Assembly: GCA_015069485.1 (NCBI GenBank)
Contig: SVIM01000011.1
Location: 1-52,275 of the forward strand
Length of the DNA stretch: 52,275 bases
Source: Clostridiales bacterium
GTDB taxonomy: Bacteria > Bacillota > Clostridia > Christensenellales > Borkfalkiaceae
Direction: 5' to 3'
Part shown: positions 36,209 through 51,152 of the stretch, in pieces
Position numbering within the stretch: the stretch's first letter is position 1
Layout: the number at the start of each line of letters is the position of its first letter
Translations under genes and position numbers: made by a program
The notes under the pieces: generated by a model
The model's database searches: none
What the model saw: the letters and a program-made list of their open reading frames with translations, nothing else
What the model was told of the DNA's origin: nothing

Positions 36209-36988
36209 TTAAAAGCCCCTTTTTACTAAATCTTCGCACAAGGCAATATAAAACGCCGAAACCTTTTCCTTCTTTTTCTTTCGTGTTAAATAGCAAACTA
36301 TTTCGTTATGCGAAACGGATTCGGGCAAGGCGTCGCCCTTATATTCGCCGAACACGGTGGAATTTTTTGCCACCATACCGTCGGAAAAATCCTTTTCGTA
36401 GTGATGGGAAATTAAATAGGGAATACTCATAACGAAGTCCGCCTTCGCGCCGTCCATCGTAGCGGAATAGCTTTGGCAATATACGCCGTGGTTTTTAGTT
36501 TTAAGCTCTACCTCGGCGTCCTCGTTAGAAGCAAGCTGCTTTAAAACGGCTACCGTATCGGGGTTTTTATCCTTTAAAATTTTATAAAAAAGGTTTACCC
36601 AAAAGGCGCAAAAATAAAGCAAAAATTTGGGCATTTTTAAAACGGTAGTTGCCACCTGCGAGCCCTTGTGGGGCGTGCAAATGCAGGTTAGCGAGGCCAC
36701 CTTGCTTGCCATATTTAAATTGTCTATTAAATATTTTGCGTCGAGCCCGCCCTTGGAGTGCCCTATTATATTAACCTTTTCCGCGCCCGTTTCCTGCAAA
36801 ATGCACTCTATTCGGTTTTTTAACTGCTCGGCGTTATTTTCTATCGTTCCCATGCCGTCGCAGTTGGAGGTATAAACGGAAAAGCCAGCGCTTTGCAACA
36901 CTTCTTTTATATGCCCAAAGCCGTTAAAAATTTTGCCTTCCTTAAGCATTATGCCGTGACATAAAATAATGGGATATTTACTTTTCAT
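36209..36988 (-). CDS. Alpha/beta-hydrolase, triacylglycerol lipase-like
   Basis: A 259-residue cytoplasmic alpha/beta-hydrolase of bacterial lipase type. It starts YPIILCHGIM (oxyanion-hole HG) and has the nucleophile elbow IIGHSKGGLDAKYL with the catalytic Ser, then CTPHKGS. Asp of SDGMVAKNS and His of VSHNEIV complete a plausible triad. No signal peptide, so it acts inside or leaves by another route. It lies 112 bases downstream of the O-acylation operon, beyond a hairpin; an esterase linked to that operon is possible but not shown. The ribosome binding site is weak. Confidence 0.82.
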   Translation of the reverse strand: MKSKYPIILCHGIMLKEGKIFNGFGHIKEVLQSAGFSVYTSNCDGMGTIENNAEQLKNRIECILQETGAEKVNIIGHSKGGLDAKYLIDNLNMASKVASLTCICTPHKGSQVATTVLKMPKFLLYFCAFWVNLFYKILKDKNPDTVAVLKQLASNEDAEVELKTKNHGVYCQSYSATMDGAKADFVMSIPYLISHHYEKDFSDGMVAKNSTVFGEYKGDALPESVSHNEIVCYLTRKKKKEKVSAFYIALCEDLVKRGF

Positions 36989-37007
36989 AATTATAAAAAA
37001 TGCAATA

Positions 37008-37058
37008 GTTGGGGTATATTACCGCGTCAATTTGCTTTTACAGTAAATTTACCCCAAC
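37008..37058 (-). terminator. Hairpin at the end of the acylation operon
   Basis: GTTGGGGTA (37008-37016) pairs with TACCCCAAC (37050-37058) across a 33-base loop; TATTGCATTTTTTATAA follows on the minus strand. It may end the operon or attenuate the lipase gene. Confidence 0.55.
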
Positions 37059-37100
37059 CTAAAGCTTTAATAATTTTCTACGGCGCAATAGCGCCTTGCG

Positions 37101-39323
37101 TTAACCTCTTAACAGAGCCTCGTAAATTTTAGTGCCGATAATCTTGGTGTATTCAGCCGAGCCGTCTTCGGAGAGGTGATAGTTTGTATCGAAGAAATAA
37201 TACTTATCGAAAATACTATCGTAAATATCGCTTATTAACGTGGCGGGGAAGTTGGATTGGCTAAACTTTTCTTTAAACAGGTTACTTAAAGCGTCGACCG
37301 CATCCATATCTAAGCCCTGATCGTTTATAGGGCCGAAGGTTGCGTATACCCTTACGCCCATATTTTTAATTTGAGCAAAAAGCTCTGCCATGTTTTCAAA
37401 GCAATTATTTTGTAAAATATCTTCGCAGGGGGTTAAATCGTAAACCGAGCCTTCGTTATCAAATCCCCCTTCCCTTTTCTTTAGCATATCGCCCTGCTTG
37501 CCTAAATTTCTGTTATAGTCGTCGTAGGAAGCAGATACTCCGTTGCTTAAAAGATTATTCTTTCTTTCAACGTGTTCGTTAAACGCCTTAAATACGGCGT
37601 CGTAATGCTTTATGTTTACTAAAGCAAGCAAGTCGTAGTTGGCTTCTACCGTTTCGAAAACGCGGTTATCGCACTCAAACGAGCCGTAAAGCTGATACAT
37701 TGAAGCCAGCTCAAAAAAGTCAATGAATATGTCGCCCTCGCTTAAATATCGCATTATAATTTCCACTTGATATAAAGCGCACGTACCGCCTACTACGCCC
37801 ATATTAAGAACGTTGTAATACCTGTTAATCATCTCCGTTCTTATTTTGGTGGTATCAAAGCCGTACCATAGCGAGCAGCTGCCAAACAGCACTATTTTTT
37901 GCCTTATATCGGTGCGATCTATAAGCATTTCTACCTTATTGGTAAACTGTCCGTTTTCGGTAGCAACGAATTGCGGAGGCGTTATGGCATTTACGTGTAG
38001 GGTTTGCACCGTGGTTTGCCTTAAGCTTTCGTTGCCAAAGGCGTTTTCGCTTAAGCCTACGATATTATCGTAAATATAAAGCTCGGTAAAGCTTTCGCAT
38101 CCGTCAACGGCAAAGGCTAAAAGATATTTTATTGACTTGGGCAATATTAATGTTTTTAGCTGTGCATTTGCCTTTATTGCGTTAGTGCTTATTATTCCTA
38201 CGGGCACTCCGTCGATTTCTTCGGGGATTACCAAGCACTCTTCCTCGCCGGAATAGCCGGTAATAACTGCCGTTTTGCTTTGTGAATTAGCGTTTGTTAC
38301 AAGCTCTTCTAATTGAGCTTCGCCTTTATACAGGGCTTCGGCGTCCTCTTCGTCAATAAGTGAGTATTCAAACAAATCCTCGTCAGACCATTTTTCCCAC
38401 TCGGCGTAAAGCATTTGCGCTTGATCCCTATATACGCTTACTCTACTGCCCAAGCCAACGTGCGTTCCGCTTCCGTTTGACTTGGTGTTCCAGCCCTTTA
38501 ACGTATATCCGTAACGGCTAATTTTATCCGTTCCTATTTCCGTGTTGGGGCGACGGTGATTTAATAAGGTGTGGCTTACGGTGAAATAATCGTCCGTCCA
38601 GCCGTTTGTAAACTCACCGCCGTTTAAATGATAGCCAACCACCGCATAACCGCTTATGGGCGATAGCTGAATATCGATTTCTTCATCAGGCGGAATTACC
38701 TCTTCTACAAAATCGGTATGCTCAACCAAAATATTTGCGCTTTGCGTTACGTTGTTTAAAATTAAGGTTACCTGGCGTTCGTTATTTTCGTTAACCTCAC
38801 CGCCAGCGCCCGTAAAGCTAAACGCACCGTTGTAGTTTACGCCTTTGATGGTAAACTCCTGCTTAAAATAAAGCGTGAATATTGCCGTTTCGCCCTCTTC
38901 AATTTGCTGTGTGTGCGTTTCGCACCTAAAAGCCTGGGACTGAACGAGGCTTAAGTTATATAGTTTTGCCGTTTGCTTTAGCTGAACCTCGATATTAGTA
39001 GGATATTTAACGTTTTTTAGCGTTAACTCGGCATTTCTTTCCCCGTTAGCATTAGGCTGCGAAATAGCCACTTCGTAATCGCCGTAATTTACGCTGTCGA
39101 AGGTATAGCCGTTTTCAATTGTAAACGAAAACTTTACGTTTTGCCCCTTATTAACCGTTTTAATATTTTCGGTTGCGTCGAAATTATCGCCTTCCGACAA
39201 AATAACCTTGCAGGTTTTTTGCTCGGGCGGGGGTTCTTCCGTAACGCAAGCTGATAAGGGCAACGTTAGCATAAACGTAAATGCAAAAAGCGTTGCTAGC
39301 TTTTTAATATATTTTCCCTTCAT
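37101..39323 (-). CDS. Lipoprotein with InlB-type repeat, BspA-type LRR and SGNH-like domain
   Basis: A 740-residue exported lipoprotein. The ATG at 39323 is chosen because AGGGGT then has proper spacing; a TTG two codons earlier would be too close. The lipobox is LPLSAC (Cys26). Then come two beta-rich segments (about 35-205), an InlB/Flg_new repeat (about 226-310, with GYTLKGWNT and MLYAEW), BspA-type LRRs (about 350-445: LKTLILPKSI, FTELYIYDNI), and an SGNH-hydrolase-like domain (about 475-740). That domain has KIVLFGSCSLWYG at block I, where Cys483 stands at the usual Ser position with Ser484 next to it, and FDTNYHLSEDG with Asp712 and His716. It lies directly after the second SGNH gene. 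Likely a surface acyltransferase or esterase. Confidence 0.8.
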   Translation of the reverse strand: MKGKYIKKLATLFAFTFMLTLPLSACVTEEPPPEQKTCKVILSEGDNFDATENIKTVNKGQNVKFSFTIENGYTFDSVNYGDYEVAISQPNANGERNAELTLKNVKYPTNIEVQLKQTAKLYNLSLVQSQAFRCETHTQQIEEGETAIFTLYFKQEFTIKGVNYNGAFSFTGAGGEVNENNERQVTLILNNVTQSANILVEHTDFVEEVIPPDEEIDIQLSPISGYAVVGYHLNGGEFTNGWTDDYFTVSHTLLNHRRPNTEIGTDKISRYGYTLKGWNTKSNGSGTHVGLGSRVSVYRDQAQMLYAEWEKWSDEDLFEYSLIDEEDAEALYKGEAQLEELVTNANSQSKTAVITGYSGEEECLVIPEEIDGVPVGIISTNAIKANAQLKTLILPKSIKYLLAFAVDGCESFTELYIYDNIVGLSENAFGNESLRQTTVQTLHVNAITPPQFVATENGQFTNKVEMLIDRTDIRQKIVLFGSCSLWYGFDTTKIRTEMINRYYNVLNMGVVGGTCALYQVEIIMRYLSEGDIFIDFFELASMYQLYGSFECDNRVFETVEANYDLLALVNIKHYDAVFKAFNEHVERKNNLLSNGVSASYDDYNRNLGKQGDMLKKREGGFDNEGSVYDLTPCEDILQNNCFENMAELFAQIKNMGVRVYATFGPINDQGLDMDAVDALSNLFKEKFSQSNFPATLISDIYDSIFDKYYFFDTNYHLSEDGSAEYTKIIGTKIYEALLRG

Positions 39324-39344
39324 TTTCAATACCCCTAAGGTTTT

Positions 39345-40769
39345 TTAATAAGCTTCGATAAAGCTGCCGTGACGTCCCCACCAATAGTCGTTAATATAGT
39401 TGGTCATTTCTGCCTTAGGCACGTAAATCTTACAGCCCGTAACGCCGTTGAAAAGTCCGCTATATACGGCACAGTCCGAAGCCTTAGCCTCCTTAGACAT
39501 ATATATACTCTTAAGCGACGTACAGCCGTTAAACGAATCGTCTAAAATGCTTTTAATGTTTTTACCTATATGGATTTCTTGAATTAAGGTGTTGCCGGCA
39601 AATACGTCAGCGCCAAACGCCAATACCTTTTTGCCGTTATAGAAATCGGGAATTTCGATAGAGGTTACTTGCTTGCCTGCTTCAGTTAACGCCACTATAT
39701 TATAGCCGTAAGACGTTTCTTCGTATTCAAACAACGCCGCATCCTTACCGTCTTCACCCGTTACGTCCTCTTCGGGAACAACGGGCTTTTCGGGGATAAC
39801 TATTTCCGTTTTAGAGCTATCGCCCAAATAAACCTTGATATCCTGCACTAATTGACGGGTATATACTACCGAGCCTGCCGTGTTTACGTGTACGTTAGAA
39901 TCGTAGAACCAGTCGCTATCGAAAAGATAGTTGTGAGGGCTGCCTAAAATTTCGCAATTTAACGTTTCGTCTAAAAAGTCGTAAAAGGCGTCGATATCCT
40001 CTTCGGTGGTGTTAGGCATAACGCCCTGAATATTTATAGGGCAGAAGCCGTATAAAAGGGTTGCGCCCTTGGAGGTTACAAAGTCGTTATATTCGTTTAC
40101 GTATTCGCTAAACTCCGCAGTCATTACGCTTTTATCGTACGAAACTCTTTCAACGCTATCAAAGCCCATAAGCATTTGATTGTACGGTCTGTCGTAAATC
40201 ATATCCAACCTTTCGTTAAAGGAGGAAGCCGCGTAAACGCCTTCGGGTACGGGCGCGCTATTCGTCGATAAATAACCGAATTTTTGCGAAATGAACGCAG
40301 GATATGAGCCAATCATTGAAGCGATATCGTCGAAGCTGATTCTGGTTAAAAGGTCGAAATTTCCGTCCAAGCACTTCCATAACGTTTCGCCGTTGAAGTA
40401 TAAGGAGAGCGATTGTGCGCCCTGCTCGGGAGCGAGAATTACTATGTCGCCTTCCTTAATATTTTCACGGGATAAGTCCATCATAGCCTTCGTGCCGACT
40501 GCACCGTAAAGGCCAAAGGGACAAACGGTGTAGCCTTCTATTTCGCTTTCTATAAGCTCGCCGTTTACGCCAAACGCAACCGCGCTGTTTCCCACAACGA
40601 CTATACGCTTACCTTCGGTGGTTTTTAACCTTTCTACCATTTTAGGCAAAACGCCGTAATAAGTTGCCCCAAATTGTTGGGGAGTAGTAAGTCCTATTAT
40701 AAATAGCGCAACTGGAATTATTAAAAGCGCTAAAATCGTACAAGTTGTTTTTAATATAATCTTTTTCAT
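39345..40769 (-). CDS. Membrane-anchored SGNH-family protein with C-terminal LRR (AlgJ/DltD-like role)
   Basis: A 474-residue protein with one N-terminal membrane helix (about 8-28) and an external SGNH-type domain (about 50-320). Block I is VVVGNSAVAFG with Ser62; the late motif DSNVH gives Asp290 and His294. A short acidic/Pro linker (about 325-345) leads to BspA-type leucine-rich repeats (about 347-455: IQEIHIGKNI, LKSIYMSKEA). Proteins of this fold partner MBOAT enzymes and hand acyl groups to surface polymers (AlgJ/AlgX, DltD, PatB). Here the MBOAT gene ends only 5 bases upstream, supporting such a role. The LRR fusion is unusual and may bind target or cell wall. Confidence 0.82.
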   Translation of the reverse strand: MKKIILKTTCTILALLIIPVALFIIGLTTPQQFGATYYGVLPKMVERLKTTEGKRIVVVGNSAVAFGVNGELIESEIEGYTVCPFGLYGAVGTKAMMDLSRENIKEGDIVILAPEQGAQSLSLYFNGETLWKCLDGNFDLLTRISFDDIASMIGSYPAFISQKFGYLSTNSAPVPEGVYAASSFNERLDMIYDRPYNQMLMGFDSVERVSYDKSVMTAEFSEYVNEYNDFVTSKGATLLYGFCPINIQGVMPNTTEEDIDAFYDFLDETLNCEILGSPHNYLFDSDWFYDSNVHVNTAGSVVYTRQLVQDIKVYLGDSSKTEIVIPEKPVVPEEDVTGEDGKDAALFEYEETSYGYNIVALTEAGKQVTSIEIPDFYNGKKVLAFGADVFAGNTLIQEIHIGKNIKSILDDSFNGCTSLKSIYMSKEAKASDCAVYSGLFNGVTGCKIYVPKAEMTNYINDYWWGRHGSFIEAY

Positions 40770-40774
40770 ACCTA

Positions 40775-42268
40775 TTAAAATTGGAAATACAAGAATGCGC
40801 TTGTATCGTTACCTGATGCTGCAATTATCCATACTACTGCAATTAACGCGATAAAATAGAAGTATGAAGTATTGCGGGTTGCCTCCACCGTTTTTCCGCT
40901 TGCGAGGGGGGAGAAAAGCTTGTTGCCTTTTTCGGAGGGATAAGCCATATCATGCGCGAGCGCTACTATTACCAAGGAAAGGGCAATTTGAATAATATCG
41001 AGCAAGCTCATTGAAAGAGCCGTAAGCGAGGTATTTACGTACGCTTCGCTTAAGCCGAATTCCGTAAACATTTTTGCAAGAATAAGGAATACGTCTTCAA
41101 CGCTTTGCGCACGGAAGAATACGCTGGTAAGCCCAACTAATAAGAATACTATCGCTCTTCTAATAAACACGATTAAGGCGTTTTTATTGTCTATATTAAA
41201 GCGTTTGCAAAGGTTGCGATAGTGAGGGCGCAACAAGTCTTCTACAACGGTATACGTGCCGATAAGAGCGCCCCACATTACGAACGTCCACGACGCGCCG
41301 TGCCAAAGTCCGCTTAACGTAAATACTATAAAGATATTTATATATTTGCGAACCTTTCCCTTTCTGCTTCCGCCAAGGGGCCAATAAACGTATTCCATAA
41401 ACCAAGAGTTTAAGGATACGTGCCAACGGCTTCCGTATTCGCGTATGCTGGTTGCAAGCAAGGGCTGGTTGAAGTTTTTGGTAAGCTTTACACCCATCAT
41501 TCTTGCACAGCCGGCAGCAATGTCGGAATAGCCGGAGAAGTCGCAATATATTTGTATGGTAAATAGCATTGCCGCAAGCCAAAGCGAGAAGCCTGTGTTT
41601 GCAGAAATGTTACCGAACGCACTGGTTACGAACGCGCCCACCACGTCTGCTACGGCAATCTTTTTAAACATACCGTATATCATTAGGCGCAAGCCTTGCT
41701 CCATATCCTCCGTCGTTGCGTTCTTTTCCGCCTTTAATTGGGGGAGTAGATGGTCCGGTCTTTCGATAGGACCTGCTACGAGCTGAGGGAAGTACGAAAC
41801 GAATAGAGCGTAGTAGCCAAAGTGCTTTTCTGCCTTAACCTTTCCGCGGTAAACGTCTATTACGTACGAAAGCGTTTGGAAGGTATAGAACGATATACCT
41901 ACCGGCAATATAATATCCCAAACCTTTCCTTCTAAATTAAGCGAGAACAGATTTAGGAAATCTACTACCGACGAGAATAGGAAGTTCCAATATTTAAAGA
42001 AGGCAAGCGTACCCAAGCATACTACCAAAGTTAGCGTTAGCAGTAGCTTTTTGACCTTTTGCGTTTGCGATTTTTCTATGTATATGCCTGCCACGTAAGA
42101 AACTACCGTTGTGCCTAAAATTAAGAACACGAGCGTGGGGTTCCAGCTCATATAGAAGTAGTAGCTTACGATAAGGAGCCAAGCCCAACGCCATTTAAAG
42201 GGCAAAGCGCGATGAACTATTATTACTACTAAAAGATAAACTAAAAATTCTATGGAGTTAAAATTCAT
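40775..42268 (-). CDS. MBOAT-family O-acyltransferase (AlgI/DltB-like)
   Basis: A 497-residue polytopic MBOAT protein. Typical landmarks: LVAGPIERPDHLLPQ (about 163-177), YCDFSGYSDIA (241-251), EYGSRWHVSLNSWF (277-290) with His283, and the catalytic His323 in LSGLWHGASW. Such proteins carry acyl groups across the membrane to acceptor polymers, with an SGNH partner. Strong GGAGGA ribosome binding site; the ATG overlaps the stop of the 104-residue membrane protein by 4 bases. Next genes encode two SGNH proteins. No acyl carrier protein gene accompanies it, so acyl-CoA is the likelier donor than a Dlt-type carrier. Confidence 0.95.
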   Translation of the reverse strand: MNFNSIEFLVYLLVVIIVHRALPFKWRWAWLLIVSYYFYMSWNPTLVFLILGTTVVSYVAGIYIEKSQTQKVKKLLLTLTLVVCLGTLAFFKYWNFLFSSVVDFLNLFSLNLEGKVWDIILPVGISFYTFQTLSYVIDVYRGKVKAEKHFGYYALFVSYFPQLVAGPIERPDHLLPQLKAEKNATTEDMEQGLRLMIYGMFKKIAVADVVGAFVTSAFGNISANTGFSLWLAAMLFTIQIYCDFSGYSDIAAGCARMMGVKLTKNFNQPLLATSIREYGSRWHVSLNSWFMEYVYWPLGGSRKGKVRKYINIFIVFTLSGLWHGASWTFVMWGALIGTYTVVEDLLRPHYRNLCKRFNIDNKNALIVFIRRAIVFLLVGLTSVFFRAQSVEDVFLILAKMFTEFGLSEAYVNTSLTALSMSLLDIIQIALSLVIVALAHDMAYPSEKGNKLFSPLASGKTVEATRNTSYFYFIALIAVVWIIAASGNDTSAFLYFQF

Positions 42269-42579
42269 TTCTTATCCTCCACGTTTTGCGATTTTTCTTC
42301 GCTTATTTTTTTATTATTATCCTTTTCGTCGCTCAACTGCGGTTTTTCCGTCTTTAAGCCAGCCAAATTTATTATTACAAAAAGTAATAATACGATAACT
42401 ATTTCTTGCAAGGTTGCGCCTAACAATATTGCGTAAATTATTACGGCAATGGACAAAAGCACGGATAGTACGGGCAAAAAATAACCCGTACTGTTCGTTC
42501 TTAGTTCAAAAATTAAAATTGTTAGCGCCAATGCAAAGCCCCCTAAAATTATAGGTGAATTAAAAAGTACGCCTTCCAC
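42265..42579 (-). CDS. Small three-helix membrane protein of the acylation operon
   Basis: A 104-residue protein with three hydrophobic segments (about 8-26, 32-54, 56-74) and a charged Lys/Glu/Asp/Ser-rich C-terminal tail (about 75-104). It starts with GTG, supported by AAGGAG 10 bases upstream. The 4-base overlap with the MBOAT gene implies coupled translation and probably a physical partnership, comparable in position to small accessory subunits such as DltX in Dlt systems, though without visible sequence similarity. No family was recognised. Confidence 0.7.
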   Translation of the reverse strand: MEGVLFNSPIILGGFALALTILIFELRTNSTGYFLPVLSVLLSIAVIIYAILLGATLQEIVIVLLLFVIINLAGLKTEKPQLSDEKDNNKKISEEKSQNVEDKK

Positions 42580-42595
42580 TTAAATTTCTCCTTGT

Positions 42596-43858
42596 TTAAG
42601 GTTTTTTAATTGACCACGCAGCTATTGAACCGATAAGCGCGACGCCAGCAAGCACGCACAAAGGAACTATAACTCCGTTTGAAACGTCGAAAAGACTGCC
42701 AAACATAGTAGCGCCCATAGAATTTATAAAGCCCGCTAACATCACTACCTGTATGTTTATTTGATAATGCTTTTCGCCAAAAAGCTTTCTGGTTACTATC
42801 GCGCCGTCCGGCGCAGCCATGCCCATACAAAAACCGCCGAATACGAGCGTTATTATAAGGACTACTAAATTTTGTAAGAGTATTGCCCCAAGTATTAACA
42901 GCACCGAAAGGAATACCGTTGCCGAGCCTACCCTTATGGTGAAGCCTATACCGAACTTGTCGTTTATTATTCCGGTAATTACTCTTCCGCATCCGTTTGC
43001 CATAGAAACGGCGCCTATTATAATTGATACGCTATTTAGCTTTATGGCTGCATCTACGTTTTCTAAAATTTGTCTGCCAAAGCTTGAAACGACCATACTT
43101 GGCATAGTGCAGCAGCAACCCATTACGAATAAAAGCCAAAAGGACGGCCTTTTAATCATTTGTAAGGGCGAAAGCTCTAACGTGTCTATAGGAAACTTAT
43201 CTACCTTAGGCGGACAAACGGGCGCAACGTAGTCCTTGGGTGGAGCAACCATTACTATTGCCCCTATAACCATTATGCAGGCAATAACTAAGCCCATTAC
43301 CCAAAAAACGGTGTTCCACGCTATACCTGCGCTTACGATACCCGAATATGCCGTACCTATAATTAGTGGACCTACGCCGTAGCCCATTAAAATTATACCC
43401 GTTGCCAAGCCTAATTTATCGGTAAACCATTTCGTAATATTTACTATAACGGCGTTATAGATTAAAACCGTGCCCATACCGCCTATTATAGAATAGCCTA
43501 TAATTAGTAAAGTGAAGTTTTGCGCAAACGAGCTTAATAAAAAAGCCAAAAACAAGCACGCCGCGCCAATTAAAATATTTATTCTAACGGTTTTTAGCTT
43601 ACCTACTAAAATACCGCCGACTACGCCGAATATTGCATACGAATACATAAATAGCGTAAATACTAAACCGCCCTTCGTTTCGCTCCAAATTTCGCCAAAC
43701 GCCTTGGAGATAGGCCCGCTTAACGTCGTCCAAGCATAGCCTACGCTTACGGATAGCATCATTATTACGCCAAACAAAAGCAAAAACCACCGCTTTTTTT
43801 TATACCTTTCAAATACCTCGTTGCCCGGCGCAAAAGTAGAAGCTTGAATATTTTCCAT
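42596..43858 (-). CDS. MFS transporter, oxalate/formate antiporter (OFA)-like
   Basis: A 420-residue 12-helix MFS carrier. N-terminal KKRWFLLLFGVIMMLSVSVGYAW is typical of the OFA group of monocarboxylate/dicarboxylate carriers; the loop GKLKTVRINI follows TM2 and a large central loop (about 205-225) divides the halves. It sits 9 bases after the ANL ligase gene and 16 before the small membrane protein gene. Import of a carboxylic acid that the ligase activates is the simplest reading; substrate is not determinable. Good ribosome binding site (AGGGGG). Confidence 0.88.
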   Translation of the reverse strand: MENIQASTFAPGNEVFERYKKKRWFLLLFGVIMMLSVSVGYAWTTLSGPISKAFGEIWSETKGGLVFTLFMYSYAIFGVVGGILVGKLKTVRINILIGAACLFLAFLLSSFAQNFTLLIIGYSIIGGMGTVLIYNAVIVNITKWFTDKLGLATGIILMGYGVGPLIIGTAYSGIVSAGIAWNTVFWVMGLVIACIMVIGAIVMVAPPKDYVAPVCPPKVDKFPIDTLELSPLQMIKRPSFWLLFVMGCCCTMPSMVVSSFGRQILENVDAAIKLNSVSIIIGAVSMANGCGRVITGIINDKFGIGFTIRVGSATVFLSVLLILGAILLQNLVVLIITLVFGGFCMGMAAPDGAIVTRKLFGEKHYQINIQVVMLAGFINSMGATMFGSLFDVSNGVIVPLCVLAGVALIGSIAAWSIKKP

Positions 43859-43867
43859 TTTGCCCCC

Positions 43868-45370
43868 TTAGTGCTGTTTGCTAAGCAATTTAATAATAAG
43901 CTGCTTATCAGGCTTTCCCGTCCCCGAAAGGGCGGGCATTTTTTCTAAGAATAAATATTTAGTAGGGATTTCGTATTTTTTAAGCAATGGCGTTAAATAT
44001 TCTATAACGTCCTCTTGGCTAACGCCGTTTGCTACGATACAAGCACCCACCTCTTCGCCGTATTTTTCGCTGGGTACGCCTACGATATGAGCGTCAAGCA
44101 CGCCTTCCATTTCTACGATGGCGTTTTGTATTTTAAGTGGCGAAATGTTTTCCCCACCGCGAATTATAATATCTTTACATCTGCCAACTATATATAAATA
44201 GTCGTTTTCGTCAATGTAAGCCAAATCGCCGGTATGGAAATATCCGTCTTCATCTACGGGTAAATCAAGGCCGTGATCGGTTATATAACCCTTCATTACG
44301 CAATATCCACGCACGCAAATTTCGCCAACGCCACCGGTTTCGGTAACGATTTTTCCGTCTGCAGTTTTTAAAACGCCGTCTATGGTAGGTAAAAACTGAC
44401 CTATACCCTTACTTCTGTTTTCTAACGTTGCGTTTATGGGAGTAAAGCATACCACGGTTGAGGTTTCCGTCATACCGTACGAGGGGCAAACCTTAATACC
44501 TAAGCCGTTTTCAATGCTTATAAACTGTTGCTTTGAGTACGCGCCGCCTGCTATTATACCCTTTTTAAATTTGCTTAAATCGCGAGGTCTTTCCTTTTGC
44601 GCTTCAAGCAACATATAGTAAAACGTGGGTACGGCGTCTAAATGGTTGACCTCGTATTTTTCAATACAGTCTAAAACGTAATGCTTTTCGCGTGTTTTAG
44701 GAATAAAAATTTTACAGCCCATCGCTATATTAGATTCTAATATCTGCACGCCGAAAACGTGATGCAAGGGCATTATTAATATAGTGATATCCTTATCCGT
44801 ACCTCCGCTTAACGACAGCTGATTATAGCCGTTATTAAGCATTGCGTATTGCGTTAAAAGCGCCGCCTTGCTTTTGCCCGTAGAGCCTGAGGTGAAGAAT
44901 ATGTAGGAGGGCGTTTCGTTATCGCAGGTTAGGGGCGCGTCGGCAACGTCTTCAAAGCCTACGCCGTCGTTTTTATTAAAGGTAAAAACTCTGCCGTCCT
45001 TGCACTCGCAAAGCCATACTCCGTATCCGTTTTGCCTTATAATGTAGTCGTGATCGATTTTAGCAGAGCAATGTCCTAAATATTCTTCCACCGTTTTTTG
45101 AGGGTCGCTTAAAACCAAAACAGCTTCGGTTGCAACCACGGCAAATAATACGAAAGGCGCGTCTATACTTCTGGGAGGAGTTACCGCTACGGTTTTTCCT
45201 TTACCTATTCCCCAGCTTTTAAACTTAAAAATAAGATAATTGTAAATCGCAAAAAACTCTTTAAAGGTATAGCTTTCGGTTTCGTTTAAAAGCATAACCT
45301 TTTCGCCGTATTTTTGTACGTTTTCCTTTACGTAAGCAAAAATGCTTTTGTTAGAACTTTTATATTCCAT
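43868..45370 (-). CDS. ANL-superfamily acyl-CoA synthetase / AMP-dependent ligase
   Basis: A 500-residue acyl-adenylating enzyme. P-loop FFTSGSTGKSK (158-168), SYGMTE (A5), HTGDLAYID (A7), GRCKDIIIRGGENISP (A8 hinge) and the catalytic Lys486 in SGTGKPDK (A10) are all present. It activates a carboxylic acid with ATP and passes it to CoA or another thiol. No signal or membrane segment; it is cytoplasmic. Co-operonic with an MFS carrier and MBOAT/SGNH genes, it probably supplies the acyl donor for surface O-acylation, the place DltA holds in Dlt operons. Residue identity around the acyl pocket does not tell chain length. AGGGGG ribosome binding site. Confidence 0.92.
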   Translation of the reverse strand: MEYKSSNKSIFAYVKENVQKYGEKVMLLNETESYTFKEFFAIYNYLIFKFKSWGIGKGKTVAVTPPRSIDAPFVLFAVVATEAVLVLSDPQKTVEEYLGHCSAKIDHDYIIRQNGYGVWLCECKDGRVFTFNKNDGVGFEDVADAPLTCDNETPSYIFFTSGSTGKSKAALLTQYAMLNNGYNQLSLSGGTDKDITILIMPLHHVFGVQILESNIAMGCKIFIPKTREKHYVLDCIEKYEVNHLDAVPTFYYMLLEAQKERPRDLSKFKKGIIAGGAYSKQQFISIENGLGIKVCPSYGMTETSTVVCFTPINATLENRSKGIGQFLPTIDGVLKTADGKIVTETGGVGEICVRGYCVMKGYITDHGLDLPVDEDGYFHTGDLAYIDENDYLYIVGRCKDIIIRGGENISPLKIQNAIVEMEGVLDAHIVGVPSEKYGEEVGACIVANGVSQEDVIEYLTPLLKKYEIPTKYLFLEKMPALSGTGKPDKQLIIKLLSKQH

Positions 45371-45394
45371 AATTTCCCCCTTTATATTATTTTA

Positions 45395-46132
45395 TTAAAG
45401 CCTTTTAACTTCTCTTTCGGTTAAGAACTTCATATATCTATCGGTAAATTCCGCCTTGTAGGTACGCCTTAAATCTACGATTACGCCCGGTAGATATATA
45501 GAAGCGTTTACTAACGAATATACGTGAACTAAGTTAATTATCGTCGAGGACGAACAATGGGCAAAATCGAAGTTTTGCAAAATATTGTCGGCTTCCTTTA
45601 TGCTTCCCCTAACTTTAAGGGTTTTTTGCCATTGCTTGCTCTTTGGATGCAAATGGTAGTAAATATAATGTCTTTGTACCTCGACGTATAAAATTTCGCC
45701 TATGGGAACAACTACTATACCTTCGGTGGTTTTTATGCTGACCTTTCGGCGCATCGTGCGCCTTAAAATGAATATACCGCGCTTTAGGCAGGCAAACGTA
45801 GCATCCTTTTGCAAGGGCTTTAAAAGATACCCCACAACGCCGTATTCGTAGCAAGATAGGGCGTATTGCGCGTTTTTACATATAAACGCTATAACGACTT
45901 CGGGGCGATATTCCCTTATTTTTTTTGCGATTTCCATACCGTTTAAGGTAGGCATATCAATTTCTATAAAAATAAAGTCGCTTTCCGTGTCGTTTTTTAA
46001 AAAATATTCATCACTGCTTCTATAGCCCTGCACTTCAAATTTTACGTTATGTACCTGCTCGTATTCGCCAAGCAGTACGTTTAAATTTGAAAAGCAGTCC
46101 TTATCCTTATAAATTACGCAAACGTTATACAT
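45395..46132 (-). CDS. LytTR-family regulator with non-canonical receiver domain
   Basis: A 245-residue protein: receiver-like domain (about 1-120) and a LytTR DNA-binding domain (about 138-242). In the receiver the position of the phospho-acceptor Asp is Glu57 (IFIEIDMPTLNG, where most have LDIxMP), and the N-terminal acidic pair is replaced (VIYKDKD). The Lys of YLLKPL is retained. It may therefore be active without phosphorylation or respond to another signal. No histidine kinase lies next to it. It is the first gene of the acylation operon, with AGGAGG before its ATG, so local regulation of that operon is likely. Confidence 0.9.
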   Translation of the reverse strand: MYNVCVIYKDKDCFSNLNVLLGEYEQVHNVKFEVQGYRSSDEYFLKNDTESDFIFIEIDMPTLNGMEIAKKIREYRPEVVIAFICKNAQYALSCYEYGVVGYLLKPLQKDATFACLKRGIFILRRTMRRKVSIKTTEGIVVVPIGEILYVEVQRHYIYYHLHPKSKQWQKTLKVRGSIKEADNILQNFDFAHCSSSTIINLVHVYSLVNASIYLPGVIVDLRRTYKAEFTDRYMKFLTEREVKRL

Positions 46133-46404
46133 AATACCTCCTATCGTATTTTAAGCCATAACCCCGTGGATAAACGGCTTTTTTTGTTTACGTATTTATT
46201 ATATCAAATTTTTTTAATTTTGTAAATACCTTGGCACAAATTGTATAAATTCTGGCAAACATTTATTAAAACTATATCACTTTGACATACAAAACTAAGT
46301 TTTTTGCACGCAATAAATATACAAATTTTTACAAGATAACAAATTTTTTTAGCTTTTTAAAAATTTTTTTTGCCTTTTTTGTATTTTTATTTGGCAAGGC
46401 GCAT
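46133..46404. other. A+T-rich control region upstream of the acylation operon
   Basis: The gap 46133-46469 holds a promoter (46198-46226) and the GH3 terminator (46405-46441). No coding sequence is seen. Two GTTT-containing motifs on the minus strand 12 bases apart near 46255-46280 were considered as LytTR sites but have the wrong spacing. Confidence 0.5.
46198..46226 (-). promoter_or_regulatory. Promoter of the LytTR-acylation operon
   Basis: Minus strand TTTACA (46221-46226), 17 bases, TATAAT (46198-46203), about 65 bases before the ATG. Confidence 0.75.
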
Positions 46405-46469: not shown

Positions 46470-49400
46470 TTATTTGCCTGATTTTTTAATTGCGAAGAAG
46501 CCCCAAGCAACGATAGCTGCTGCAACTACGCAATCGAGCACGATAATCATCGTCTTCCACCATTCAGTCTGGTAGCCAACAACCTTAACGTTTACGGAGT
46601 TGCTGTTTGCAACGGCGTAAAGGATGTTGTGAGCTGCAGTACGTAAAACGGTTACGTCTTCTGCGCTAGTGGGATCGGGATTCAGCCACATTAAGCTTTC
46701 TACGGAAGCGAGGATAAGGTCGTTACCAGCATAAAGCATCTGCTTAGCGTCCATGAATACTTCACCGGACTTATAGTCGCAGATTACTAAGCCTCTGAAG
46801 CCCCATTCGCTACGGAGAACGTTATTGAGCAATCTGTAATCGCCACCAGTCCACTTTAAGCCGATACGGTTGAAGGAGGACATAACGCCCATAGTTCCCT
46901 TGTATTCGGTTACGCCTTGTTCTGCTGCGGTTTCTGCGATAACGTCGTCGCCCTTAACAGCGATTTCGAACGCCTTGAAGTAAACTTCACGCATAGCCTG
47001 TTCGGTACAGAACGTAGCAACGCCAGAACGGTTGGTTTCTTGGTCGTTAAGAGCAAAGTGCTTAAGGTCGGTATATACGCCCTTAGTTGCAGCGCCGTTA
47101 ATAACGTTTACTGCCATTTTGCCGGAAAGAACGGGATCTTCGGAATAATATTCGAAGTTACGTCCGGAGAAAGGTGAACGGTGAAGGTTGATTGCAGGTG
47201 CATACCAGCCGCTGTAAGGCAAGCCGCTATCGTCGTAGTCGCCCCAAACTGCGTTGTCACCTACGATTCTACCCATACGGTATGCTAAATCCTTGTTCCA
47301 AGTAGAACCGATAACGATTTCGCATGCGAAGGTAGTGTTGTCGTCGTAGTGAGAAGACAAGCCGGGCTGGAAGTTTACGAAGCCGATAGGACCGTCGGAG
47401 TCGTAGGTAAGGTTTTTATCGATAGATTCGATATCAACGGTTTGGAAAGCGCCCTTATTAGCAAGGTCCTTCATTTCTTGGAAGGTAAGCTTATCTAATA
47501 ATTCGTTCCAAAGATCGTCGTCGTAATCTTTACCGATAAGATCTCTTATGGTAATTTCGTTTTCTGCGCCAGTAGTAGGCATACCCTTTTCTGCTACGAT
47601 ATCAGCAATTGCGGTGTTGTTATGAGAATAGTCGGTAAGGCGTTCAAATTCGGTTACGCCTTCAGCGTTTTCCATAACTGCACGTTCGTCCTTGGTGGAT
47701 GCCTTGGGGAACGTACCTTCGAAATCGGTACGGGACATACCCTTACGGGTTACTTCCATTCCGCTTTCGCTTACTACGTTGTTATTGTCGATACGGTAGT
47801 CTGCATCGTTGAATAAATCTTCGTTGTCGGTGAAAAGGTTTTCTACCTTAACGTCAGTTACAGGGTCATTTTCGAAATAAAGGTCTTGTTCAAGAGCGAA
47901 GGTGGTTGCGTCGTACGCGTATGCGTCAACGTGAGAGTTAGCGCTTACGATAAAGTTGTAGTCGCCTTCTTCAAGCTCGTAGCCCTTAATTCCGTTTGCG
48001 TTAGCGTCGTTATAGTCGTAAGAAGCTAAGTCGTAAGCAGCTACTTCAAAGGTTACGCTCCAGCTTGCGCCTGCCGCTAAAACGGGAGTTTTAGCAAAAT
48101 CAACGAGCTGAACGTAAGGCTTTTCGATACCACCGAAGGTATAAGGGGTATTAACGTAAAGCTGAACTACGTCTTTGCCTGCAACTGCGCCGGTGTTGGT
48201 TACTTCAACGGTAATTTCAACGGAGCTGTCTAAGTCGGTTAAAGAACCGCTTACTTCGGTTATTTCTTGAGTAAAGGTCGTGTAGGAAAGGCCGTAGCCG
48301 TAAGGATATCTAACGTTTTGTTCGTACCATTTAGAAGAAGGGTTTTCTAACTTTTCTTCGTATGCACGGGTTTCGTAATAACGATAACCTACGTAAATGC
48401 TTTCGTCGTAAATTATCATTTTGTTAGCGTTAGCGCCTTCAAATTCTACGTTAGCGCTGCCGTCTGCGGTTGCTTGAGAGCCGTCGCCGAAGTTTATCCA
48501 AGTGGGATCCTTAGTGAAATCCTTAGAATATAAATCTACGGTTTTGCCGGAAGGGTTAACGTTGCCGTTAAGAACGGAGCCGATAGCTTCTGCACCGGTA
48601 GAGCCGGGGCCACCGATCCAAAGAAGACCGTCAATACGCTTGTCTGCAGAGTTGTTATACTCGTCCATAAAGTCGCATTGGAAGGAGGTAAGAGTATTTA
48701 ATACTACGATAACCTTATCGAATCTTGCGGTTACTTCGTCTAAAAGAGCGTATTCGTTATCGTCTAACTGAAGGTAGTGAGAGCCTTCGATACCACCGCT
48801 GGTCGTATCCTGTACGCGGGGTAAGTCCCAAGATTCGCCGCCAAGACGGGAAACTACTACTAAAGCCAAGTCGTTATAGCTTGCATAGGAATCGATAACC
48901 TCTTGAGTGTAGTTAGCAATGGGGGTTTCGCCAATTTTAAGCGTAGGGGAAGAGCTTGAGCCTGCGGTAAGCGTAGGGCTTGACGAACGGCCTTCGCCAG
49001 AAGCGTCGCTTTCGTAGAAAGCTTTAAGCACGGGGTTGTATTCGTAGCCACCTGCGGTTAAGCCGTCGAATATGGTTTTTGCGCTTTCGCTACCGATACC
49101 GCCGGAGCCGGAGCCACCTAACACGAGGTTTGTAGAGTTTTTACCGAAAACGGAAACCTTGGGTTTTTCAGTTACGGAAGATCCTTCGGTTTCGGGGGTT
49201 TCCATAGGTAATACGTTGTAGTTTTCTAAAAGGGTAAAGCCTTCTTGCGCAATTTCTACGTTAAGCTTATCGCCCGCTTCCTTAGATTCAGCCTTGCTGT
49301 TATAGTCGGAAGTGTAAATAGCGTTTACGCTATCGTCAAGAGCAGGCTTTTTGTTGCCGAGCACGGTTTGAAGAATAGGCTCTAATATGCCGTTTGCCAA

Positions 49401-49484
49401 AATCGTAATCGTAATAAATAACGCTGCAAGGAAAACGGAAACACATGCCCAAACGATAGTGCCTCTTTTATTAAATTTTTTCAT
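46470..49484 (-). CDS. Membrane-anchored GH3 glycosidase with reversed domain order
   Basis: A 1004-residue GH3 protein with N- and C-terminal membrane helices (about 9-32 and 977-999). Unlike the GH3 at 12689-15112, the alpha/beta sandwich domain comes first (about 75-340: EGFTLLENYNVLPM, GGSGSGG), then the Fn3-like domain (about 400-530: TNTGAVAGKDVVQLYV), a linker, and the TIM barrel last (about 690-960). The barrel has SGRNFEYYSEDP, KHFALNDQE and nucleophile Asp903 in GLVICDYKSG. Such C-N order is known for some clostridial GH3 enzymes. It would face outward, tethered at both ends. Strong AAGGAGGA site; it follows the InlB lipoprotein gene by 12 bases. Confidence 0.92.
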   Translation of the reverse strand: MKKFNKRGTIVWACVSVFLAALFITITILANGILEPILQTVLGNKKPALDDSVNAIYTSDYNSKAESKEAGDKLNVEIAQEGFTLLENYNVLPMETPETEGSSVTEKPKVSVFGKNSTNLVLGGSGSGGIGSESAKTIFDGLTAGGYEYNPVLKAFYESDASGEGRSSSPTLTAGSSSSPTLKIGETPIANYTQEVIDSYASYNDLALVVVSRLGGESWDLPRVQDTTSGGIEGSHYLQLDDNEYALLDEVTARFDKVIVVLNTLTSFQCDFMDEYNNSADKRIDGLLWIGGPGSTGAEAIGSVLNGNVNPSGKTVDLYSKDFTKDPTWINFGDGSQATADGSANVEFEGANANKMIIYDESIYVGYRYYETRAYEEKLENPSSKWYEQNVRYPYGYGLSYTTFTQEITEVSGSLTDLDSSVEITVEVTNTGAVAGKDVVQLYVNTPYTFGGIEKPYVQLVDFAKTPVLAAGASWSVTFEVAAYDLASYDYNDANANGIKGYELEEGDYNFIVSANSHVDAYAYDATTFALEQDLYFENDPVTDVKVENLFTDNEDLFNDADYRIDNNNVVSESGMEVTRKGMSRTDFEGTFPKASTKDERAVMENAEGVTEFERLTDYSHNNTAIADIVAEKGMPTTGAENEITIRDLIGKDYDDDLWNELLDKLTFQEMKDLANKGAFQTVDIESIDKNLTYDSDGPIGFVNFQPGLSSHYDDNTTFACEIVIGSTWNKDLAYRMGRIVGDNAVWGDYDDSGLPYSGWYAPAINLHRSPFSGRNFEYYSEDPVLSGKMAVNVINGAATKGVYTDLKHFALNDQETNRSGVATFCTEQAMREVYFKAFEIAVKGDDVIAETAAEQGVTEYKGTMGVMSSFNRIGLKWTGGDYRLLNNVLRSEWGFRGLVICDYKSGEVFMDAKQMLYAGNDLILASVESLMWLNPDPTSAEDVTVLRTAAHNILYAVANSNSVNVKVVGYQTEWWKTMIIVLDCVVAAAIVAWGFFAIKKSGK

Positions 49485-49496
49485 TTTGCGTCCTCC

Positions 49497-51152
49497 TTAG
49501 CTTAAGTTGCTATACCACAAGTTGTCGTAAATGGGGCTATAGGAAAGGGTTGCGTCGCCGTAATTTTTAATCTTAATGCAGTCGATTATAGGTGCGCAAG
49601 AAGCTCTCGTACCGCCACAGTTAGTGCTGTTGTTGGTAATAAGTTTAATGCTGTTCCAGCCTTCTACAAGGTTGATGTTGCCAATGGTGTATTCTGCAAA
49701 TCCAGTCTTAGCGCTTATATCTGCAGAGCCTGTGCCGGGAACCGTTATATTATAGGTTAAGGATTCGCCGTTAACCTGAATATCGTAGCCGTGTTCACCG
49801 GTGGTGGTTAACATTAAGGGGAAAGGTAATTCAGAGCCTAAGTTTGCAATAAGAGTTGCGCCGCTTACAGCCTGAGATGAATATACCTTAAATTCAACCG
49901 TTATACCAGGCGAGAAGAGATAGGTTACATAGTGACCGTGACGATCGGGGTGTACTGTGTTAACTTCGTCGGTAGAAGGAGTTGACATACCTTCGAGAGT
50001 TTCGTGCTGAACAACCGCTGCGCCGTAAAGACCGCCGGAATAGCCGGGATATAATACCTTACTATCGTAGTAGCAGAATTCTGCTTCGAATACGTCGGTT
50101 TGAACTAAATCCTTTTCCCAATGAGCAAAGTAAGAGATTGATTTAGAAACTAACATATCGGTAAAGTCAATAAGTTCGCCATCGTACGTTGCGCTATACC
50201 AGCCGATGAAGGTGTAGCCTTCACGAGTGGGATTTACTTCGGGAGGATCGAGCTTAGTGCCACCGCCTACGCCCTGTCTATATTCATAGTTACCGGAATC
50301 AGGAGCATCAACGTAGTTATATCTGAATCTAATATTATAGAAGTTCTGTTGCCATACTGCGTATAAGGTGCTAGTTTCGTTGGGGGTGTAAGGGAAAGTA
50401 ACACATTCTTCAACGGTAGTTGCATCGGGGCTAGTTGCCCAACCGATAAAGTTACAGCCTACTCTTGAAAGAGCGGGTGCGTCTGCACTACCGATAGATT
50501 CGCCAGGAACGATGCCGAGGATGGAAGGAAGCTCCTCTTCTACTCCTTCAAAGTTATAATCAAAGTATAAATCGAAAAGCTTAACGTCCTCTTCTACCCA
50601 TTCTGCGTAGAAGGTTACGTCTTCAGTAACAACGTAAGGGAATACTACGGCGTCGCCGTTTTCTGCCTTGTTGTTCCATCTACGGAAGTTATATCCATCA
50701 CGTACAGGGTCCGTTTCAGGTGCGTTAACTTCGTTGTTGTATTCAACTTCAACGGTATCAGCCGTGGCATTTTCATAGTTATGATCGAACGTTACCGTGT
50801 ATATACCGGGGGTCCAAACAGCGTATAAGGTTACGTTTTGGGTAGGGGTATAAGGGAACGTTACGTCGCTTGCTTCAGCGTTTTGGGTGGTTGCCCAACC
50901 GACGAAATCGTACCCCACGCGTTCGGGGTCTGCACAAGCTTCAGAGCTTTCACCTTTATCAACGTACTTCTTTGCGGGACGGGAACCATTGCTTCCTTCT
51001 TCCGCATCGTTGTAGTTAAAAGTGATAGTATAAGTGTCGGTGTTTGCAGGGGGGGGATTCTGCGTACTCGTACAAGCTCCGGCAAAGCAAGTAAACGCAA
51101 ACGACGTAGCGAGTACGCCAGAAACGATTACTTTTACCAATTTCTTGTTCAT
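49497..51152 (-). CDS. Lipoprotein with four InlB-type repeats and a C-terminal CBM-like domain
   Basis: A 551-residue exported protein. Signal peptide with lipobox CFAGAC (Cys27 most likely lipidated). Four InlB/Flg_new beta-repeats run from about 40 to 345; each ends in a motif such as GYDFVGWATT...VTLYAVW. The C-terminal part (about 350-530) resembles a family 6/35 carbohydrate-binding jelly roll (DVFEAEFCYYDS..., LVEGWNSIKLITN, IDCIKIKNY). It would attach to the membrane and bind a glycan or another surface protein. It lies between the collagen-like gene and the anchored GH3, so it probably presents polysaccharide to that enzyme. AGGAGGA ribosome binding site. Confidence 0.88.
   Translation of the reverse strand: MNKKLVKVIVSGVLATSFAFTCFAGACTSTQNPPPANTDTYTITFNYNDAEEGSNGSRPAKKYVDKGESSEACADPERVGYDFVGWATTQNAEASDVTFPYTPTQNVTLYAVWTPGIYTVTFDHNYENATADTVEVEYNNEVNAPETDPVRDGYNFRRWNNKAENGDAVVFPYVVTEDVTFYAEWVEEDVKLFDLYFDYNFEGVEEELPSILGIVPGESIGSADAPALSRVGCNFIGWATSPDATTVEECVTFPYTPNETSTLYAVWQQNFYNIRFRYNYVDAPDSGNYEYRQGVGGGTKLDPPEVNPTREGYTFIGWYSATYDGELIDFTDMLVSKSISYFAHWEKDLVQTDVFEAEFCYYDSKVLYPGYSGGLYGAAVVQHETLEGMSTPSTDEVNTVHPDRHGHYVTYLFSPGITVEFKVYSSQAVSGATLIANLGSELPFPLMLTTTGEHGYDIQVNGESLTYNITVPGTGSADISAKTGFAEYTIGNINLVEGWNSIKLITNNSTNCGGTRASCAPIIDCIKIKNYGDATLSYSPIYDNLWYSNLS

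Follow-up and report, generated by a model that had tools for sequence, protein, structure and literature searches.

A candidate surface acyl-transfer gene cluster of Clostridia that combines MBOAT and SGNH proteins with a CoA-type ligase

In PatA-PatB and related MBOAT-SGNH pairs, as presented in the pertinent sections of PMC12148441, the MBOAT carries a C-terminal FXYXXF shuttle motif, no carrier takes part and the SGNH partner is a separate protein. PatA acetylates the tyrosine of such a hexapeptide from acetyl-coenzyme A (acetyl-CoA) and the SGNH partner takes acetyl-tyrosine as donor, while in the Dlt system the motif resides on DltX and the donor is carrier-bound D-alanine (same sections of PMC12148441). 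Alginate O-acetylation by AlgI-AlgJ-AlgF-AlgX employs one MBOAT together with two SGNH-type proteins, AlgX being placed as the terminal enzyme (PMC4148444). A pair of an MBOAT and an SGNH-type (DHHW) protein also occurs in Clostridia, where CcsH-CcsI accompany cellulose synthase (ccsZABHI) and where the passages of PMC7710045 on this operon mention neither a ligase nor leucine-rich repeats (LRRs). Here we describe a gene cluster at positions 37,101 to 46,132 of a 52,275-nucleotide stretch of DNA (contig SVIM01000011.1, assembly GCA_015069485.1, Clostridiales bacterium, Borkfalkiaceae), referred to as the window in its full length. At a probability of roughly 0.7, we propose that it encodes an MBOAT-SGNH relay for acyl transfer at the cell surface, which has PatA/AlgI-type chemistry and is fed by its own CoA ligase.

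Seven minus-strand genes were confirmed, separated from the LytTR gene to the SGNH2 gene by 24, 9, 16, -4, 5 and 15 nt, and they probably constitute one operon:

45395..46132, minus strand: LytTR response regulator, first gene of the probable operon (Pfam Response_reg 42.7 bits, LytTR 37.4 bits)
43868..45370, minus strand: ANL acyl ligase, putatively of the CoA-ligase type (AMP-binding 176 bits)
42596..43858, minus strand: OFA/monocarboxylate-like transporter of the major facilitator superfamily, MFS (MFS_1 104.9 bits)
42265..42579, minus strand: small three-helix membrane protein (SMP), 4-nt overlap with the start of the MBOAT gene
40775..42268, minus strand: MBOAT acyltransferase with C-terminal FLYFQF (MBOAT 106.8 bits)
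40775..40795, minus strand: codons for the terminal FLYFQF and stop
39345..40769, minus strand: SGNH1, with N-terminal membrane anchor, SGNH domain (Ser62, Asp290, His294) and C-terminal LRR domain
37101..39329, minus strand: SGNH2, predicted lipoprotein with Ig-like and InlB-like parts, LRR and C-terminal SGNH domain

In comparison with PatA-PatB the window system has a ligase of its own, two SGNH proteins bearing LRR/InlB-type modules, a three-helix protein and a cysteine in SGNH2. It differs from the alginate system in its ligase, its LRRs and its SGNH proteins without a Pfam SGNH match; we know of no ligase and no LRRs in alginate O-acetylation.

In the proposed relay the ANL protein, judged by family and motifs, would convert a carboxylic acid into its acyl-CoA. 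The MBOAT would transfer the acyl group from CoA onto the tyrosine of its own C-terminal FLYFQF at the outer face, a mechanism shown for PatA and indicated here by the motif. Membrane-anchored SGNH1, whose triad is conserved, would take over the acyl group on Ser62, and lipoprotein SGNH2 with its LRR and InlB-type modules would accept it, probably in thioester linkage to Cys485, before passing it to the final acceptor by analogy with AlgJ and AlgX. The SMP, to guess from its position, probably holds the MBOAT and its SGNH partners together, and the LytTR protein probably controls the operon. Because a dedicated ligase is present, the acyl group is probably not acetyl. An earlier note on this DNA had put forward a route of import, activation, translocation and transfer, with LRR domains that would choose the acceptor; the last three steps of this route are upheld by the ligase, the MBOAT and two SGNH proteins, which are conserved as a set. 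The acyl-tyrosine shuttle scheme would thereby extend to ligase-fed systems.

PatA/AlgI-type features are evident in an MBOAT ending in FXYXXF and a linked extracytoplasmic SGNH protein with Ser-His-Asp. FxYFxF forms the C-terminal end of all 75 complete family MBOATs examined (from the window and loci L076-L154, L036, L037, L048 and L049), and a search of solved sequences with the MBOAT matched only two, both DltB. At the second position of the hexapeptide most ligase-free clusters have Ile or Leu, whereas Ala, Gln, Glu or Thr prevail in the ligase clade: a non-aliphatic residue occurs in 22 of 27 ligase-bearing rows against 2 of 48 others (Fisher 3.6e-12), the ligase-bearing exceptions being the window, L077, L078, L080 and L049. 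This difference is not used as evidence because it amounts to one change on the MBOAT tree with no differing independent pair. Just upstream of 67 of the 75 complete MBOATs lies a gene for a small protein in which two or more segments are hydrophobic, with a 4-nt overlap in 40 cases. This SMP is no DltX: among open reading frames (ORFs) of at least 25 amino acids located up to 3 kb from 79 MBOAT rows, the two MBOATs of L104 are the only ones to end in FxYxxF. A profile search with the SMP returned 21 proteins, none of them named. In L036 (1410-3911) and L037 (5372-7717), from the two genomes with the closest MBOATs, an InlB-repeat protein with a C-terminal part that by eye is esterase-like directly follows the MBOAT.

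The core proteins recur together in other genomes. Among 121 genomes searched, the window's own included, MBOAT matches (E 1e-20) were found in 33, of which 16 belong to the window's genus, and SGNH1 (E 1e-15) in 15, of which 14 belong to the genus and are all MBOAT-positive; in G052 and G057, the two genus members that have an MBOAT match but no SGNH1, the MBOAT is either truncated by a contig end or split in two. SGNH2 (E 1e-40) was likewise present in 15 genomes; in G016 it is just a fragment containing a stop, and an MBOAT match is lacking. When genome contigs were scanned with a profile, 79 SGNH1 loci emerged, some of them on the same contigs as the genus genomes. Nearly all stem from Clostridia, with one Bacilli metagenome-assembled genome (MAG) and the isolate Blautia schinkii DSM 10518 among them; in L042 and L153, which are the same contig, SGNH1 is split into two overlapping frames. 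These 79 loci comprise an MBOAT in 73, a separate SGNH2 ORF in 67 and a ligase in 24 cases. Where a separate SGNH2 is missing (12 loci), it is fused to SGNH1 in three (L077, L078, L080) and several are cut. The earlier note had counted on a conserved gene order: what is conserved is gene content, not gene order, with arrangements such as SGNH1-SGNH2-SMP-MBOAT-ANL, ANL-SMP-MBOAT-SGNH2-SGNH1 and SMP-MBOAT-ANL-SGNH1-SGNH2. The ligase stays linked across at least six gene orders, and the survival of content despite shuffling argues for joint function. The MBOATs with a ligase form one clade of 28 rows with a Shimodaira-Hasegawa-like approximate likelihood ratio test (SH-aLRT) value of 98, outside which fall L049 and the outgroups L070 and L071; two clade members have no visible ligase (L135, and L103, whose contig ends 72 nt past the MBOAT). 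Both the MBOAT and the SGNH2 trees were built quickly and carry warnings about long branches or composition. A search of the open-licence PMC literature, which leaves out preprints and most subscription journals, revealed no paper on the operon itself, and no name seems to have been given to this surface-modification system, which is conserved in many gut Clostridia.

Features of the window ligase point to a CoA ligase rather than a DltA-type enzyme. Its best NCBIfam matches are PRK06187 (268.6 bits) and menE (224 bits), both below cut-off, and no DltA model is among the best 25 of 104 families. It possesses the motifs GRCKDIIIRGGEN and GTGKPDK and, as in ANL acyl-CoA ligases, AMP-binding and C-terminal domains with a lysine motif, which we take to be the catalytic-lysine motif. 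All 28 ligases of the branch carry the CoA-type motif GRxKDxxIxxGxN, and the best solved relatives of the window enzyme are CoA ligases, an acyl-ACP (acyl carrier protein) synthetase ranking lower. Such motifs make the lack of a carrier an expected trait, and both the ligase type and the missing carrier would fit an acyl-CoA donor and an acyl-tyrosine intermediate. The earlier note had regarded the missing carrier as setting the system apart. The operon indeed has no DltC, but this is not distinctive, as MBOAT/SGNH pathways other than Dlt are also without a carrier and evidently use acyl-CoA (PMC12148441, in the sections concerned).

The same relay could, however, be fed differently, with the ligase loading a fatty-acid-type ACP and the MBOAT using acyl-ACP as DltB uses DltC. 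We consider this improbable. In its favour is L049/L163 (G117:C47), where a menE-like ligase and a 78-aa carrier of its own accompany an SMP, a related MBOAT (43%) and SGNH1, a natural carrier-fed version of intermediate character; the window genome, moreover, has one PP-binding gene. Opposed to it are the ranking of the solved relatives and the finding that no ligase-branch locus contains a carrier-like ORF by a profile that does match L049, L056 and L070-L073; this profile was made from four sequences, partly from loci later matched, and only the matches in L072 and L073 are independent. A Dlt-type carrier elsewhere in the genome, which the earlier note had named as speaking against its route, was not found: the single PP-binding gene has a GADSLD motif, which we read as fatty-acid type. 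The 24 ligase loci are spread over 23 genomes, of which 14 have a single PP-binding match and 9 have two to six; the single copies would be fatty-acid ACPs, a reading that extends from the one in the window genome alone. Two other MBOAT clusters of the order (L070, L071) combine a DltA-like motif with a DltC-like carrier, and carrier-fed MBOATs with a fused shuttle-like end may thus exist. The MBOATs concerned, beside a DltA-like ligase and a DltC-like carrier, end in FIYEQF (L070, G093:C67) and PIYAGF (L071, G082:C14). Carrier-like ORFs were seen in L072 and L073, too. Clusters without ligase, with a CoA-type ligase but no carrier, and with ligase plus carrier form a natural series for asking how MBOATs choose their donors.

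A Dlt system that lost DltC and D-alanylates teichoic acid shares with the window a ligase, an MBOAT nearest to DltB by sequence and SGNH folds near DltD. It appears very improbable and was rejected because the ligase is of another type and both DltX and a carrier are missing: three defining Dlt features fail, two SGNH proteins are present, and the shuttle motif is located on the MBOAT with no other nearby ORF carrying it. In addition, the window genome, one 97%-complete MAG, has no match to PF00884 (LtaS-type) or PF03816 (LCP), which were detected in 10 of 14 and 7 of 14 control genomes, respectively. This speaks against standard teichoic acids, and LtaS-type lipoteichoic acid or LCP-attached wall polymers look unlikely as acceptors here.

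For the transfer steps, the earlier note's assignment of an SGNH fold holds for both SGNH proteins, neither of which matches any Pfam SGNH family and both of which are near DltD in fold. SGNH1 displays the serine and the Asp-x-x-x-His of the SGNH hydrolase superfamily, and its Ser-Asp-His is identical in 78 of 78 aligned copies. The few protein names shown for SGNH1 read 'hypothetical' or 'leucine-rich repeat'. Its C-terminal LRR domain is matched by PDB 2lz0, a nuclear magnetic resonance structure of ZP_02034617.1 from Bacteroides capillosus ATCC 29799, labelled 'uncharacterized protein' and comprising a 100-residue chain without the SGNH part. No related paper was found in the open-licence PMC literature, and this orphan structure now gains a context.

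In SGNH2 the catalytic serine is absent from the nucleophile position and replaced by Cys485, unless Ser486 serves; Asp714 and His718 complete the site (numbering of the 742-aa ORF). The lipobox cysteine (Cys28 in the window) is present in 62 of 66 copies. Position 485 is Ser or Cys and the histidine is kept in 66 of 66, the aspartate in 37. At the nucleophile position, 21 of 22 ligase-bearing loci have Cys, whereas Ser is found in 39 of the remaining 44. His is kept by every one of the 26 Cys copies, along with Asp (25) or Glu (1), while only 12 of 40 Ser copies retain Asp. At the level of sequence, this pattern suggests that SGNH2 of the ligase branch may act as a Cys-His-Asp terminal transferase. 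The link between cysteine and ligase is not strict: L079 and L118 have Cys but show no ligase when about 8 kb to each side are considered, L086 (Blautia schinkii) combines a ligase with Ser, and the second SGNH2 of G054 has Ser and no Asp. Since the SGNH2 tree, a quick one with weak deep forks, requires at least three changes between Ser and Cys, common descent may account for the link.

The nucleophile might instead be Ser486, next to the cysteine, so that the chemistry would be unchanged. This is unlikely, although 21 of the 22 ligase-bearing copies have Ser486, 'GCS' would satisfy G-x-S spacing and the model is weak at this point. Both hhalign and hmmsearch align SGNH1 Ser62 to Cys485 without a local gap, and a strand, one loop residue and a helix start coincide at Ser62 and the cysteine. 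Of the 44 copies from ligase-free loci, 12 have Gly or Asn at position 486, in contrast to the constant Ser/Cys at 485, and L120 has Cys with Ala486. Alternatively, SGNH1 could be the sole acyltransferase, and SGNH2 could stand apart from the chemistry of the relay, as a deacylase or as a subunit for binding or targeting. The variable aspartate and nucleophile agree with this, as does the loss of His from three database copies of SGNH2; against it stand the invariant histidine of the locus copies, the retention of His with Asp or Glu in every Cys copy and the natural SGNH1-SGNH2 fusions, and we judge it to be rather improbable.

Within the proposed relay, it can tentatively be imagined, at well below even odds, that the ligase branch changed the chemistry of the last step. 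With a Cys-His-Asp triad and an acyl-thioester in SGNH2, a non-acetyl, ligase-supplied acyl group would travel from Tyr to Ser to Cys and on to a new acceptor, perhaps an amine and not a hydroxyl, and several LRR/InlB-bearing SGNH2 proteins could direct a single exporter to different targets. In support of the relay itself, the host genome (1.52 Mb, 46 contigs) encodes one MBOAT and two SGNH2 proteins, the ratio to be anticipated where two terminal enzymes share an exporter. The SGNH2 family offers a clean test case for a Ser-to-Cys change in the SGNH fold. Against PDB sequences the SGNH2 profile matched LRR entries and otherwise only sequences at E 0.4 and worse. A cysteine SGNH enzyme was not found among the top-listed open-licence PMC matches, which is weak evidence of absence, and 'cysteine' in the relevant passages of the SGNH review PMC9487903 concerns disulfides. 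A second SGNH2 gene at G000:C17 (L158, 8041-10248) encodes 735 aa with the cysteine and lies beside a GH3 gene, with no MBOAT in the 18 kb fetched.

Several observations weigh against the relay as proposed. The ligase is outside the core set, as 55 of the 79 SGNH1 loci are without it, partly owing to contig ends. Some MBOATs of the order outside the family end otherwise (SIYAQF in L061, PIYAGF in L071). The existence of carrier-fed L049 implies that a fatty-acid ACP could serve the window system. The structural model of SGNH2 is moderate, with a mean predicted local distance difference test (pLDDT) score of 72.6 and about 60 at residues 481-490, and three database relatives close to the window SGNH2 (P0152, P0155, P0157) have Arg for the catalytic His, so that some SGNH2 copies may be inactive.

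The import step of the earlier note's route is unsupported because the OFA-like carrier is not conserved. It scores 176.6 bits with the lactate MFS model (cut-off 320) and 136.8 bits with OFA, below the curated cut-off of 374.85. None of the other ligase-bearing clusters contains such a carrier: there is no match in L036-L075, and the sole match in L076-L154 is an opposite-strand gene (97 bits) at the ligase-free locus L111. The carrier is thus an accessory of the window genome, seen in the window cluster only. The host genome has two further, weaker AMP-binding matches besides the ligase, three in all. Of the 27 ligase-bearing MBOAT rows, 12 have a LytTR match nearby, frequently accompanied by a sensor kinase, compared with 1 of 48 other rows.

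The boundaries of the probable operon and its upstream neighbour are as follows:

46198..46226, minus strand: promoter-like site TTTACA-17-TATAAT with TG before the second hexamer (11/12 matches), upstream of the LytTR gene
37002..37065, minus strand: hairpin 3' of SGNH2 (-23.2 kcal/mol, z -2.74 against 200 shuffles, U-run downstream)
46470..49484, minus strand: GH3 glycosidase of the upstream unit, with hydrophobic segments at both ends (Glyco_hydro_3 and Glyco_hydro_3_C)

The promoter scan alone is no evidence, as 26 sites were found in the region against 23.0 expected in shuffles, and terminator-like sites such as the stem at 46441-46415 behind the upstream GH3 gene are no commoner than in shuffles. 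The hairpin after SGNH2 probably marks the operon end. The earlier note had counted eight genes; seven stand, and the eighth, a lipase at 36209-36988, was rejected as a member since it lies beyond the hairpin and has no match in 40 loci checked. A GH3 match accompanies 21 of 27 ligase-bearing rows against 13 of 48 others, with flanks that differ in length, and some proximity is expected by chance because the host genome has 11 GH3 matches. In the window GH3 protein the C-terminal domain precedes the N-terminal domain, a permuted order. Adjoining it, 49497-51152 encodes an exported-looking protein with four InlB-type (Flg_new) repeats, and similar proteins are encoded near the clusters in relatives (12 loci).

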